Assembly: GCA_003662985.1 (NCBI GenBank)
Contig: QMZD01000034.1
Coordinates: forward strand, 1 to 10,227
Origin: Archaeoglobales archaeon
GTDB lineage: Archaea > Halobacteriota > Archaeoglobi > Archaeoglobales > Archaeoglobaceae
Direction: 5' to 3'
DNA length: 10,227 nt
In this document: positions 4,597 to 10,227 of the stretch, in pieces
Position numbering within the stretch: position 1 is the stretch's first letter
Layout: each line of letters opens with the position of its first letter
Notes under the pieces: generated by a model
Database searches by the model: none
The model's input: only the letters and a program-made list of their open reading frames with translations
What the model was told of the DNA's origin: nothing
Program-made: the position numbers and the translations under genes

Positions 4597-4890
4597 ATGG
4601 TAACCAAAGATGGTAACATGATCGAGTATTTAGTATCCCTTATCCTTGGCTTGATTTTCGGCATTTTGATTGAGAGATCCAAGAAAGAGAATAGAAGGGA
4701 AAGGGAACTCGTCTCAAAAGGAATGACCCTCAGCCTCTTCTTTCTAATTTTCTTTCTCGGACTCGATATTGGAAGAAAACTCAATCTTCAGGAAATGGCC
4801 CAGATTGGTCAAATCTCAATTTTGTTTGCTCTGATGACGATGGTCTTCAGCTATGCGTTTTCAAAAATCCTAATAAGGGTGGCGAGGTAA
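4597..4890 (+). CDS. LysO-family exporter, N-terminal part as a separate gene
   Basis: This small membrane protein of up to 97 residues has three hydrophobic segments (about 9-25, 42-58, 69-90) and a charged cytoplasmic-type loop (RSKKENRRERE, 27-37). It fits the N-terminal region of the lysine exporter LysO (YbjE, DUF340), which is a single chain of about 300 residues in E. coli. The assignment rests mainly on position directly before the conserved LysO C-terminal gene and on the hydrophobic pattern. It carries an FLGLDIG motif around Asp57 that is echoed by LIGIDLG in the next gene. The start may be Met1 (4597), eight bases after the signal peptidase stop, or Met8 (4618), directly before the first membrane segment. 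Neither has a strong ribosome site, and translational coupling is plausible. The gene ends immediately before the next ATG. Confidence 0.7.
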   Translation: MVTKDGNMIEYLVSLILGLIFGILIERSKKENRRERELVSKGMTLSLFFLIFFLGLDIGRKLNLQEMAQIGQISILFALMTMVFSYAFSKILIRVAR

Positions 4891-5481
4891 ATGTTCGTTG
4901 CGATCATTCTGCTGATTCTTTTAGCGGGAATTTTTTTAGGTTTCCAAACAAAAGACTTCACATTCAGCTTTTCAGGAGAAATAATCCATTGGATCCTGAT
5001 TCTTTTCGTCTTACTTATTGGGATAGATCTTGGACTCATGGAATCGAAGATGGAGAGAATCAGACAGTCGTGGAAATTTGGCAGCGTAATTGCTATAGGA
5101 ACGGTTTTTGGTTCGATGTTTGCGGGGTTATTGATCCATTTTTCAATGAACATTCCCCTAATCCTTGCAATTAGCGTTGCAGCTGGTATGGGGTGGTACT
5201 CCCTAACGGGTCCTTTCCTCGCTAAGACATTCGGAGCCTTCGCGGGAGCTCTCGGATTTACCTCAAACTTTCTGAGAGAAGTGTTCACGTTTATTTTATA
5301 CCCAAAGTTACGGGATAAAACTGCCGGTATCTCAATTGGTGGTGCAACGACGATGGATACGACCCTTCCCCTTATAGCAAGATTATCCGGCTCTGAAAAT
5401 GCTTTAATAGCTTTTATTCATGGATTTTTTATATCCATACTAATTCCCGTCCTCCTAACCCTTCTATCGGCTTCTGCCTAA
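4891..5481 (+). CDS. lysO: LysO-family (DUF340) amino-acid exporter, C-terminal part
   Basis: The 196-residue membrane protein matches the C-terminal two thirds of E. coli LysO, which exports L-lysine. The match is clear in three places: AAGMGWYSLTG (97-107), GGATTMDTTLP (150-160, with Asp156 in the position of the E. coli motif GATSMDFTLP), and HGFFISILIPVLLTLLS (177-193). Roughly six membrane segments are visible (about 1-18, 32-49, 63-83, 87-104, 113-135, 170-192). The ATG follows the upstream TAA with no gap, and the ribosome site GAGGT overlaps that stop, so translation is probably coupled at equal ratio with the preceding part. Lysine is the known substrate of the bacterial protein; the archaeal substrate (lysine, related basic amino acids or toxic analogues) is inferred. 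No lysine riboswitch is seen. Confidence 0.88.
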   Translation: MFVAIILLILLAGIFLGFQTKDFTFSFSGEIIHWILILFVLLIGIDLGLMESKMERIRQSWKFGSVIAIGTVFGSMFAGLLIHFSMNIPLILAISVAAGMGWYSLTGPFLAKTFGAFAGALGFTSNFLREVFTFILYPKLRDKTAGISIGGATTMDTTLPLIARLSGSENALIAFIHGFFISILIPVLLTLLSASA

Positions 5482-7717: not shown

Positions 7718-9280
7718 TTAGGCTTTTTCTGCAAACAGATCTTTGAACTTCTCCTTCAACTGACGTTTCATTATTTTTCCAGATGGTGTGATGGGTATAT
7801 TTTCGTAGCCGGTAACGATCACCTTCTTTGGCACCTTGAACCTTGCAAGCCTTTCTTTGCACCACCCAATTATCTCTTCTTCACCCACTTCCTCTCCGGG
7901 TTTGGGAACGACGACAGCCACCACAGCCTCTGCCCAGTAGGGATGGGGGACTCCTATGACTGCACAGGCTCCAACCTTTGGATGCATAGCGATAGCTGTC
8001 TCAACTTCCAGAGATGGGACGTTCTCTCCCCCACTTTTGATCATATCCTTTTTCCTGTCCACAAAGTAATACAACCCATCCTCACCAACTCTGAAAAGAT
8101 CTCCCGTGTGTAACCATCCATTTCTAAGGGTTTCCGCGGTTTTTTCCGGGTTCTTGTAGTACTCCATCATAACACTCGGCCCTCTCATCAGCAGCTCACC
8201 CACCTCACCCTCTGCAACCTCCCTCCCCTCATCATCAACTATCTTAACTTCCACATTCAGATGGGGTTTCCCAAGGCAGTTTTTTACGAATCTCTCAGCT
8301 TCCTCTTCGTTCATTTCAACGAAGCCGTAACTTAAACCTAGAGGATTGCTCTCCGTCTGTCCATAGTAATTCATCCATTTACCGTTTGGAAACATCTTCG
8401 CTGACATGAGCAAAGCCTGATAGCTCGGAAAGGGGTTACCGAAGGTGATAAGCTTATCCACGGATTCAAAGGTTCTCTCCCCTTTTGTCATCTGTATGAG
8501 AGCCATATACAGTGTTGGTGGCCAGACGAGATAGTTGACATCGTATTTTTCCAGATATTCCATCGCTTCAACCAGATCAGCTCTTTGCTGCACGAACAGC
8601 TTTGCACCCCCCATCAGTCCGCAAAGAACAAGGTAGCTTCCCGCTACATGGAACATGGGTATGGTTAAAAGGGTTCTGGAATCTTTGGTTACCTCAAGAT
8701 CATAAAAACCGCTCATCAGCGTTGCGTACCAGTTTCTGTGAGAAGCAATTACCCCTTTCGGTAAAGCTTCCGTTCCACTTGTATAGATGAGCGTGCAGGG
8801 ATCATCAGGGTGTATGTCAACATCGGGCTCTTCGGCTGATGCATTGAGCAGATCAGAATACTTGGTTTTAGCATCTTTGCCCAACCCCCTCTCGATCAGA
8901 ACTCTCTGCTTGCTTCCAGCAACCTTATCTACGGCATCGGCAAAAAATTCCTCTACGAAGATGATCTTCGCGTCAGCATGCCCGATGATGTAAGCGATGT
9001 CTTGCGGAGAGAGCATGACGTTTATCAGATTCATGACTGCACCTATTTTGGTTACGGCAAAGAGCAGCTCTATGTATTCCGGTGAGTTCAGTGAAATTAC
9101 TGAAACCACATCACCTTTCTCTATTCCCATCTCAATTAACGAGTTCGCAATTCGATTTGAGTTTTCGTAGAGTTCGTTGTAAGTTACTCCCTTTTCTTGA
9201 AAAACTACAGCTACTTCATCTCCAAAAAGTTTAGCACTTCTCCCTATAATATCCCCTACCGACATCTGATTTACTTTCAT
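7718..9280 (-). CDS. AMP-forming acyl-CoA synthetase (fatty-acid/carboxylic-acid CoA ligase)
   Basis: This adenylate-forming ligase activates a carboxylic acid with ATP to the acyl-AMP and then the CoA thioester, feeding beta-oxidation or related degradation. The 520-residue protein has the full motif set: the P-loop YTSGTEALPKG (166-176), YGQTE (306-310), GWLHTGD with Asp394, YFVDRKKD with Arg409, KSGGENV (415-421), and the C-terminal PSGK with catalytic Lys502. The P-loop has Glu-Ala where most relatives have Thr-Gly. The chain length or aromatic nature of the substrate cannot be read from sequence. The start at 9280 is backed by a ribosome site GAGGT (9288-9292) seven bases upstream. A TATA-like box lies within a GCAAAT/ATTTGC inverted repeat further up. 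The gene has its own T-tract terminator, so it is probably monocistronic. Confidence 0.95.
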   Translation of the reverse strand: MKVNQMSVGDIIGRSAKLFGDEVAVVFQEKGVTYNELYENSNRIANSLIEMGIEKGDVVSVISLNSPEYIELLFAVTKIGAVMNLINVMLSPQDIAYIIGHADAKIIFVEEFFADAVDKVAGSKQRVLIERGLGKDAKTKYSDLLNASAEEPDVDIHPDDPCTLIYTSGTEALPKGVIASHRNWYATLMSGFYDLEVTKDSRTLLTIPMFHVAGSYLVLCGLMGGAKLFVQQRADLVEAMEYLEKYDVNYLVWPPTLYMALIQMTKGERTFESVDKLITFGNPFPSYQALLMSAKMFPNGKWMNYYGQTESNPLGLSYGFVEMNEEEAERFVKNCLGKPHLNVEVKIVDDEGREVAEGEVGELLMRGPSVMMEYYKNPEKTAETLRNGWLHTGDLFRVGEDGLYYFVDRKKDMIKSGGENVPSLEVETAIAMHPKVGACAVIGVPHPYWAEAVVAVVVPKPGEEVGEEEIIGWCKERLARFKVPKKVIVTGYENIPITPSGKIMKRQLKEKFKDLFAEKA

Positions 9281-9310
9281 AAAACCTACCTCTTTAATAA
9301 ATAATCATGA

Positions 9311-9330
9311 GCAAATATTAAAAAATTTGC
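9311..9330 (-). promoter_or_regulatory. TATA box of acyl-CoA synthetase inside a 6-bp inverted repeat
   Basis: The minus strand reads GCAAAT, then TTTTTAAT, then ATTTGC: a perfect 6-bp inverted repeat around a T/A-rich TATA-like core. A start about 25 bases downstream, near 9295, leaves the ribosome site at 9288-9292 in the mRNA. A repressor binding the repeat would occlude the TATA box. The operator role is inference. Confidence 0.45.
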
Positions 9331-9467
9331 CAGTGTTTATGAGCATGTCCAATCATTTTTCAGAAAGTTGCTCTTGAGATTTTACAACAGGATAGATGTT
9401 ATTTGATGAAACTAATTCGGGATACTGCACTAAACATCAAATTTCCGATTTTTCAAAAACCCATAAG

Positions 9468-9477
9468 AATTAATATC
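9468..9477 (+). promoter_or_regulatory. TATA box of the C/D-box sRNA
   Basis: AATTAATATC is centred 23-24 bases before the 5' end of the sRNA terminal stem (9496), the normal archaeal spacing. It supports an independent plus-strand transcript. Confidence 0.65.
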
Positions 9478-9495
9478 TTGAAACTAAAAACTACG

Positions 9496-9553
9496 TAGGC
9501 TATGATGAAAGGACCCCTCTGAGAAATGATGAGGGTATTGAGTTCTGAGCCTA
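9496..9553 (+). ncRNA. C/D-box guide sRNA (2'-O-methylation guide)
   Basis: All elements of an archaeal double-guide C/D sRNA appear in order. They are a 5' stem TAGGC (9496-9500), C box ATGATGA (9502-9508), a 10-base guide (9509-9518), D' box CTGA (9519-9522), a 3-base spacer, C' box ATGATGA (9526-9532), a 12-base guide (9533-9544), D box CTGA (9545-9548), and a 3' stem GCCTA (9549-9553) that pairs exactly with the 5' stem. The 58-base size is typical. Such RNAs bind L7Ae, Nop5 and fibrillarin and direct 2'-O-methylation of the target base paired with the fifth guide base from D or D'. The complements are AGGGGUCCUU (methyl on the fifth base, G) for D' and AACUCAAUACCC (methyl on the fifth base, C) for D. 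I cannot assign targets with confidence. The gene is noncoding and tail to tail with truD. Confidence 0.92.
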
Positions 9554-9576
9554 TTCCTTTATTTCTGGTTTTTGAA
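9553..9576 (+). terminator. T-rich tail after the C/D-box sRNA
   Basis: Directly after the terminal stem come T-rich runs (ATTCC, TTTATTTC, GGTTTTTG), suitable for archaeal termination. Processing to the mature 3' end would be expected as well. Confidence 0.45.
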
Positions 9577-9590
9577 GTTAAACCACCTAA

Positions 9591-10227
9591 TCAGCTTTTC
9601 ATGAACTCCCTTAGGAAAACGGTTGCATAACATCCCTTTGGAAGGAAAAAACTGAAGTATGCATTTCCATTCGTATCACACTCAAACTCAAGGTTTGAGA
9701 AATCGAATGGAATCTCAGCAGATCTGAAGCCGCCCGATGAAGAGAATTCCTTATATTCATGCTTGAAATCTTCAACCGATATTCCATCAGCTTCGAGAAA
9801 CTCCATCTCCTTTCTTATTGCCCAGTTTTCCATATCCAGTTTGGTATCGTACCCGGGCAGAGGTAGGACTAGTAGGCTTCTGCCCTTTGATATTAGAAAC
9901 GCTACTCTTCTCTCAATTAGACTCGTTTTGACGGGCTCATTTTTTAGGAGGGGAACGAAAAGTTCTTGAGTTCCATGTTCAACCTTTCTAATCGAAATAA
10001 AGTCTACGTAATCGGTGGTTTCAAACTCTCTCAGGCTTCCAAATTCCCTTATTCTTGCAGAGAGCGTTCGATTGAAGATCCATGATTGATAGGCATGGAC
10101 GAACATGAGTTTCAAGTTTTTGGGAAGGGTAAGCAAAGCTTTTTCTTCGTTTAATCCTTCCTGCAACTTCTGGAGAAGGTTCCTTTCATATCTTAGATAG
10201 CTAGGAAGCTCCCTCAAACCGAACTTC
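9591..10227 (-). CDS. truD: tRNA pseudouridine synthase D, TruD (C-terminal half; runs off right edge)
   Basis: About 211 codons of the 3' end are present. The frame is open to the right edge, so the true start lies outside; the TTG at 10217 is internal. TruD makes pseudouridine 13 in tRNAs (and some other sites in archaea). Visible family blocks are LRYERNLLQKL, LPKNLKLMFVHAYQSWIFNR (the conserved MFVHAYQS core), a block around LPLPGYDTKL, SSGGFRS, and the typical C-terminus FFLPKGCYATVFLREFMKS just before the TGA. The catalytic Asp and the GxxNxFG region belong to the missing N-terminal half. Compared with a usual archaeal length of some 400 residues, about half is here. A C/D-box sRNA ends 37 bases past its stop on the other strand, so a truD 3' extension would be antisense to that RNA. 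Confidence 0.93.
   Translation of the reverse strand, partial: KFGLRELPSYLRYERNLLQKLQEGLNEEKALLTLPKNLKLMFVHAYQSWIFNRTLSARIREFGSLREFETTDYVDFISIRKVEHGTQELFVPLLKNEPVKTSLIERRVAFLISKGRSLLVLPLPGYDTKLDMENWAIRKEMEFLEADGISVEDFKHEYKEFSSSGGFRSAEIPFDFSNLEFECDTNGNAYFSFFLPKGCYATVFLREFMKS

Follow-up and report, generated by a model that had tools for sequence, protein, structure and literature searches.

Passages of the literature already report C/D sRNAs for C34 of tRNA-Leu(CAA) in Pyrococcus. One such passage (PMC7668247) lists C34 of tRNA-Leu(CAA) and G47 of tRNA-Leu(UAA) as predicted sites in P. furiosus, the former as a prediction and not as an observation; according to the same passage, Cm34, Am38 and a methylated G26 were observed in some tRNAs, whereas the other listed positions were undetected in the tRNAs analysed there. 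The portion of a Haloferax study at hand (PMC2584109) describes C/D sRNAs for Cm34 of tRNA-Met and tRNA-Trp; the guide pairs with a portion of the intron, and the authors therefore hold that methylation precedes splicing. In an excerpt of a larger survey (PMC4644070), 163 of 489 sRNAs are without a clear rRNA complement, and many of the 163 fit tRNAs or 5S. A small-RNA survey of A. fulgidus (Tang 2002) is cited in a passage of PMC3432209. Among the literature matches listed, whose scope excludes the early work of d'Orval 2001 and Tang 2002, no title or abstract concerns the sRNA described here.

This sRNA shares its RNA class and its predicted target base, C34 of tRNA-Leu(CAA), with the Pyrococcus sRNA, a likeness drawn from the description in those passages only. 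Target and RNA class are already known, and we describe a further member with its likely target named. Here the second guide also fits tRNA-Leu, provisionally, and the G47 of tRNA-Leu(UAA) predicted for P. furiosus in the PMC7668247 passage perhaps lies in a region comparable to the site of that guide. We assign a probability of about 0.9 to the reading that the locus encodes an archaeal C/D guide sRNA with its D guide aimed at C34 of tRNA-Leu(CAA). The reading draws on the observed architecture and conservation of the sRNA, the position of its TATA box, guide-target complementarity in relatives and a fibrillarin gene.

A box C/D sRNA gene between two minus-strand genes

The window analysed here, 10,227 nt of a thermophilic Archaeoglobales archaeon (assembly GCA_003662985.1, contig QMZD01000034.1), contains a canonical archaeal box C/D sRNA gene with the following features:

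9470–9475, plus strand: TATA box TTAATA, predicted own promoter of the sRNA, 33–28 nt upstream of the first T of box C
9496–9553, plus strand: box C/D sRNA gene, 58 nt if delimited by the terminal stem
9496–9500, plus strand: 5' arm of the terminal stem, TAGGC, pairing with 9549–9553
9502–9508, plus strand: box C, ATGATGA (direct reading and pattern count)
9509–9518, plus strand: D' guide AAGGACCCCT, with its complement AGGGGUCC in the tRNA-Leu variable arm, a provisional target
9519–9522, plus strand: box D', CTGA (direct reading and pattern count)
between box D' and box C', plus strand: spacer GAA, 3 nt (direct reading)
9526–9532, plus strand: box C', ATGATGA (direct reading and pattern count)
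9533–9544, plus strand: D guide GGGTATTGAGTT, predicted to pair with positions 30–41 of tRNA-Leu(CAA), N+5 opposite C34
9545–9548, plus strand: box D, CTGA (direct reading and the C'-guide-D block in relatives)
9549–9553, plus strand: 3' arm of the terminal stem, GCCTA, pairing with 9496–9500

All four boxes (C, D', C' and D) are perfect and in order, with a short 3-nt spacer between D' and C'. The pattern TGATGA-N6-14-CTGA-N1-16-TGATGA occurs once in the window, compared with a mean of 0.01 in 200 shuffles (one of the 200 had one). When folded by itself, the sRNA forms the terminal stem (z −2.4, with 3 of 200 shuffles folding equally well). In the covariance-model check proposed in the first-pass annotation, Rfam C/D models match at the locus, namely RF00095 snoPyro_CD (35.8 bits, E 1.5e-4), the highest-scoring Rfam family for the window, and RF01152 (31.5 bits, E 5.9e-5), with both scores below the gathering score of 45 bits; the window thus falls short of RF00095 membership. 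The RF00095 gathering score is reached by 4 of 18 scanned loci, all four in relatives. The first-pass annotation had identified the C/D-box sRNA and placed its boxes correctly; its N+5 bases, the C in AACUCAAUACCC for the D guide and the G in AGGGGUCC for the D' guide, are also right.

The gene lies, as had been proposed, in an intergenic gap, here flanked by two minus-strand genes: one at 7718–9280 for an AMP-binding enzyme and, from 9591 onward, one for TruD (Pfam E 2.1e-45). The nearest named relatives of the TruD are MAGs called Archaeoglobus sp., at 92% and 70% identity. Because the sRNA is on the plus strand and both neighbours on the minus strand, it is neither a trimmed leader nor a trimmed trailer of those genes and should require a plus-strand promoter of its own. 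The TATA-like box that had been noted upstream is borne out by 35 aligned family upstream regions: A+T at −33 to −28 from box C is 0.91–0.97, against 0.57 just upstream and 0.46 just downstream. All six bases are A or T in 27 of the 35 genomes; an exception is G007, with TGGGGA. A T-rich tail, also noted earlier, is present in the window but is not conserved in the 35 genomes, where the T fraction 4–40 positions downstream of box D ranges from 0.14 to 0.60 with no run of high values. A consensus scan of 9281–9600 found no terminator-like site.

Elsewhere in the window, at 4597–5481, a LysO-like lysine exporter appears as a pair of open frames, of 97 and 196 aa, lying side by side. The same genome (G000) holds a second C/D-like pattern (G000:C195:311-342, L305), ~110 bases from a tRNA-Gln gene; G003 has it unchanged, and G005 and G035 have it in closely similar form. 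G035 is probably A. fulgidus.

Conservation within and beyond the family

Of 60 relatives searched, 33 have matches aligned to the sRNA at E ≤ 7.2e-7, and the number rises to 46 when weak matches up to E 1 are counted. The C'-guide-D block, with at most two mismatches, is present in 63 of 392 genomes of the phylum; a reversed-pattern control gave 0 matches in the same 392 genomes. By hand count the block occurs in 49 of 55 genomes of the window's own family, its own genome included. Outside the family it occurs in 2 of 2 genomes of f2 (same order), 9 of 14 of f21 (presumably Methanotrichaceae) and 1 of 2 of f12, and the complete set of four boxes is found at loci of f2 (two), f12 (one) and f21 (nine). 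Matches in G059 and G123 and a second match in G283 have the block without the other boxes and were taken as chance.

More distant relatives share the boxes and guides but not the flanking sequence. The TAGGC/GCCTA stem of the first-pass annotation holds up in the 35 family genomes, where, judged from the aligned sequences, the terminal stem covaries: its sequence varies and its pairing is kept. With G-U counted, at least three contiguous pairs form in 33 of 35 genomes and at least two in 35 of 35, the two-pair cases being G009 and G020. Boxes and stem that failed to recur in related genomes had been named as evidence that would speak against the gene; both proved to be conserved.

A second sRNA copy in G003 (G003:C4:261-312) carries the same GGGTTTTGAGTT guide as G019 and G035. 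Since the contamination listed for G003 is 4%, this copy may stem from another species.

The D guide and C34 of tRNA-Leu(CAA)

The window's own bin (80.7% complete) yielded a 5S and no 16S, 23S or tRNA-Leu(CAA), so the targets of both guides were read in relatives. Parsing recovered guides from 47 of the 63 genomes that have the D-guide block, and both the sRNA and tRNA-Leu(CAA) from 36. The other eleven are G000, G007, G008, G013, G016, G020, G026, G029, G036, G048 and G209: a search for tRNA-Leu(CAA) in G000, G007, G013, G029, G036 and G048 recognised none, the search did not extend to G008, G016, G026 and G209, and the tRNA of G020 was missed by the pattern. G031 has a tRNA-Leu(CAA) and an unparsed sRNA and so falls outside the 36.

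The guides had been proposed for comparison with rRNAs and tRNAs of the host, and in relatives that comparison gave a consistent answer for the D guide, which pairs with positions 30–41 of mature tRNA-Leu(CAA) (our own numbering) and places N+5 on C34 in 36 of 36 genomes. The score averages 22.2 (minimum 17.5). When the D guide was column-shuffled 500 times and scanned along tRNA-Leu(CAA) only, the mean was 10.3 (sd 2.6, maximum 19.0) and 0 of 500 shuffles reached 22.2. By eye, the D guide of G020 has the same C34 site, beyond the 36. For six genomes, predicted duplexes of guide and tRNA have energies from −9.6 to −17.0 kcal/mol. A conserved guide complement under the N+5 rule is thus found in relatives for the D guide and, provisionally, for the D' guide.

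D guides of the family read GGGU[A/C/U]UUGAGUN, G014 beginning with A. Opposite G37 the guides have U, C or a mismatched A. The window's guide is of the last kind, and D guides of its genus form nine Watson-Crick pairs, two G-U pairs and one mismatch, the A opposite G37, over 12 positions, which counts against the target, as does a mismatch at A31 in the D guide of G108. The G at the family's third guide position is replaced by A in 11 of 12 guides from other families; the nine of these with a parsed tRNA form A-U39 where the family has G·U39, a change in the direction expected if tRNA-Leu(CAA) is the target. Five of nine f21 D guides end in C, pairing with G30.

A single genome is insufficient to name the target, since in G005, taken by itself, two further tRNA sites reach 18.5, near the 20.0 of mature tRNA-Leu(CAA). 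U34 of tRNA-Leu(UAA), as a second D target, is weaker (16.0 in G005). An exact 12-mer search with the complement of the D guide matched in 18 of 18 genomes, every count including the sRNA itself, which is the only match in G006 and G009; the fit is clear only with mature tRNA-Leu(CAA) and with wobble pairs allowed.

The tRNA-Leu(CAA) gene carries an intron after base 37 in 8 of the 36 genes and is intronless in 28. In the eight intron genomes the D guide fits mature tRNA (mean 21.3) and pre-tRNA (mean 21.7) about equally, because the introns begin with [A/G]CC[C/U]. Methylation would fall on the wobble base, as in the Haloferax tRNA-Met and tRNA-Trp described in the PMC2584109 excerpt. For those tRNAs the guide pairs with a portion of the intron; here it fits mature tRNA-Leu(CAA) and pre-tRNA alike, and most genes are intronless.

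As to other tRNA genes, the tRNA-Trp of G005 (L150) has a 62-nt intron with C/D-type boxes, and a tRNA-Trp found in G000 (L114, G000:C3) is intronless and could be on a stray contig. In G001 (C17), G002 (C10), G022 (C4) and G031 (C18) the sRNA lies ~0.8–4.7 kb from tRNA-Leu genes that best match tRNA-Leu(CAA), perhaps a remnant of linkage.

In the mechanism we propose, the sRNA would be transcribed from its own promoter, fold through its terminal stem and two k-turns, and bind L7Ae, Nop5 and fibrillarin; the window's own genome has a fibrillarin gene (PF01269, E 1.2e-70). The D guide would pair with the anticodon arm of tRNA-Leu(CAA), and fibrillarin would methylate the 2'-O of the wobble base C34 to give Cm34. 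The D' guide may pair with the 3' strand of the variable arm of leucine tRNAs as a second site.

A D guide aimed instead at 16S around E. coli 908–914, or at another rRNA site, is quite unlikely. Such a target was suggested by a seven-base resemblance, AACUCAA, which the first-pass annotation itself considered too short for a confident target; that caution was justified and the lead fails, since archaeal 16S reads AACUUAAAG in this region in 9 of 9 genomes and rRNA offers no competitive site in the nine. They are the genomes, among 18 searched (16S match in 12 of 18, 23S match in 9 of 18), with full-length genes of both rRNAs, and both guides were scanned over their aligned 16S and 23S. The best rRNA site averages 16.9 for the D guide and 17.4 for the D' guide, whereas in the same nine genomes the D guide averages 22.8 (hand mean) at tRNA-Leu(CAA). 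We rejected rRNA as the D-guide target on this best score of only 16.9.

A rival target of the D guide is C56, a T-loop base of many tRNAs for which a passage of PMC6313347 reports a C/D guide in Pyrobaculum aerophilum. Here GGUUC in the T arm would place C56 at N+5, and a tRNA-Thr of G005, the genome in which T loops of other tRNAs were scored, reaches 18.5 at this site. Against this, the T loop of tRNA-Leu(CAA) scores below the anticodon in 36 of 36 genomes (mean 13.9 vs 22.2), and Trm56, the protein that generally makes Cm56, has matches in 6 of 6 genomes searched, that of the window's own genome being a contig-edge fragment. We rejected Cm56 as the D product on the T-loop scores and the presence of Trm56, and consider it the least probable of the alternatives. 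It is highly unlikely that the locus is a C/D-like sequence without a methylation role, whether a degenerating copy or a regulator of neighbouring mRNAs: the opposite strand of both neighbouring genes and the one mismatch between the window's D guide and its proposed target would suit such an origin, but boxes and guides are maintained although the flanks differ in more distant relatives. The reading we prefer is thus a D guide directed at C34 of tRNA-Leu(CAA).

The D' guide and the variable arm of leucine tRNAs

The D' guide, GGRCCCC, is complementary, with wobble allowed, to GGGGUYC in the 3' strand of the variable arm of tRNA-Leu. Of the five leucine tRNAs in G005, four reach a score of 22 and one reaches 19.5, all above the best other tRNA (19). 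Over 25 family genomes the mean at tRNA-Leu is 19.5, and 0 of 500 shuffles reach it (shuffle maximum 19.3). G014 was left out of this shuffle test by name; including it lowers the family mean to 19.0 (26 genomes). In G014 the D' guide, shorter by one base, scores 9.0, a clear exception inside the family that counts against the target. The first D' base does not follow the tRNA, with a mismatch in G006, G012, G017, G018, G022, G027 and G034.

In the nine genomes of the rRNA scan, the rRNA site of the D' guide (17.4) comes close below tRNA-Leu (18.7, hand mean), which also counts against the assignment, and by this comparison an rRNA site may be the D' target. Full D' matches in G006 and G018 lie outside 16S and antisense to 16S and were discarded. 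Beyond the family, G037 of f2 fits in part (11.5). Nine f21 D' guides (L241, L243–L250) are conserved as GRCCUGY, and against the variable arm of f21 tRNA-Leu they show no fit (scores 1.5–4.5). From these complementarities we propose, provisionally and at roughly even odds, that the D' guide targets the 3' strand of the variable arm of leucine tRNAs.

Somewhat more tentatively, we propose that both guides of the sRNA serve the same tRNA, D directed at C34 and D' at a variable-arm G of tRNA-Leu, the C34 guide being kept across the family and three other families and the D' guide re-aimed in f12 and f21. This dual reading is opposed by a survey of tRNA-targeting Pyrobaculum sRNAs, described in a passage of PMC7994747 as having one tRNA guide and no target on the other side. 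If it is true, the dual guide could chaperone tRNA-Leu(CAA), holding the anticodon and variable arms during maturation.

With C34 of tRNA-Leu(CAA), a guide RNA found by eye gains a concrete target. RNA-guided wobble methylation of this tRNA, reported for Pyrococcus in the passages available, would extend by prediction to the window's family, to f2, its sister family in the order, and, by the D guide, to f12 and f21 of the phylum. Cm34 is said in the PMC7668247 passage to lock C34 to G-ending codons in tRNA-Met and tRNA-Trp; applied to tRNA-Leu(CAA), the modification would do the same for the Leu codon UUG.
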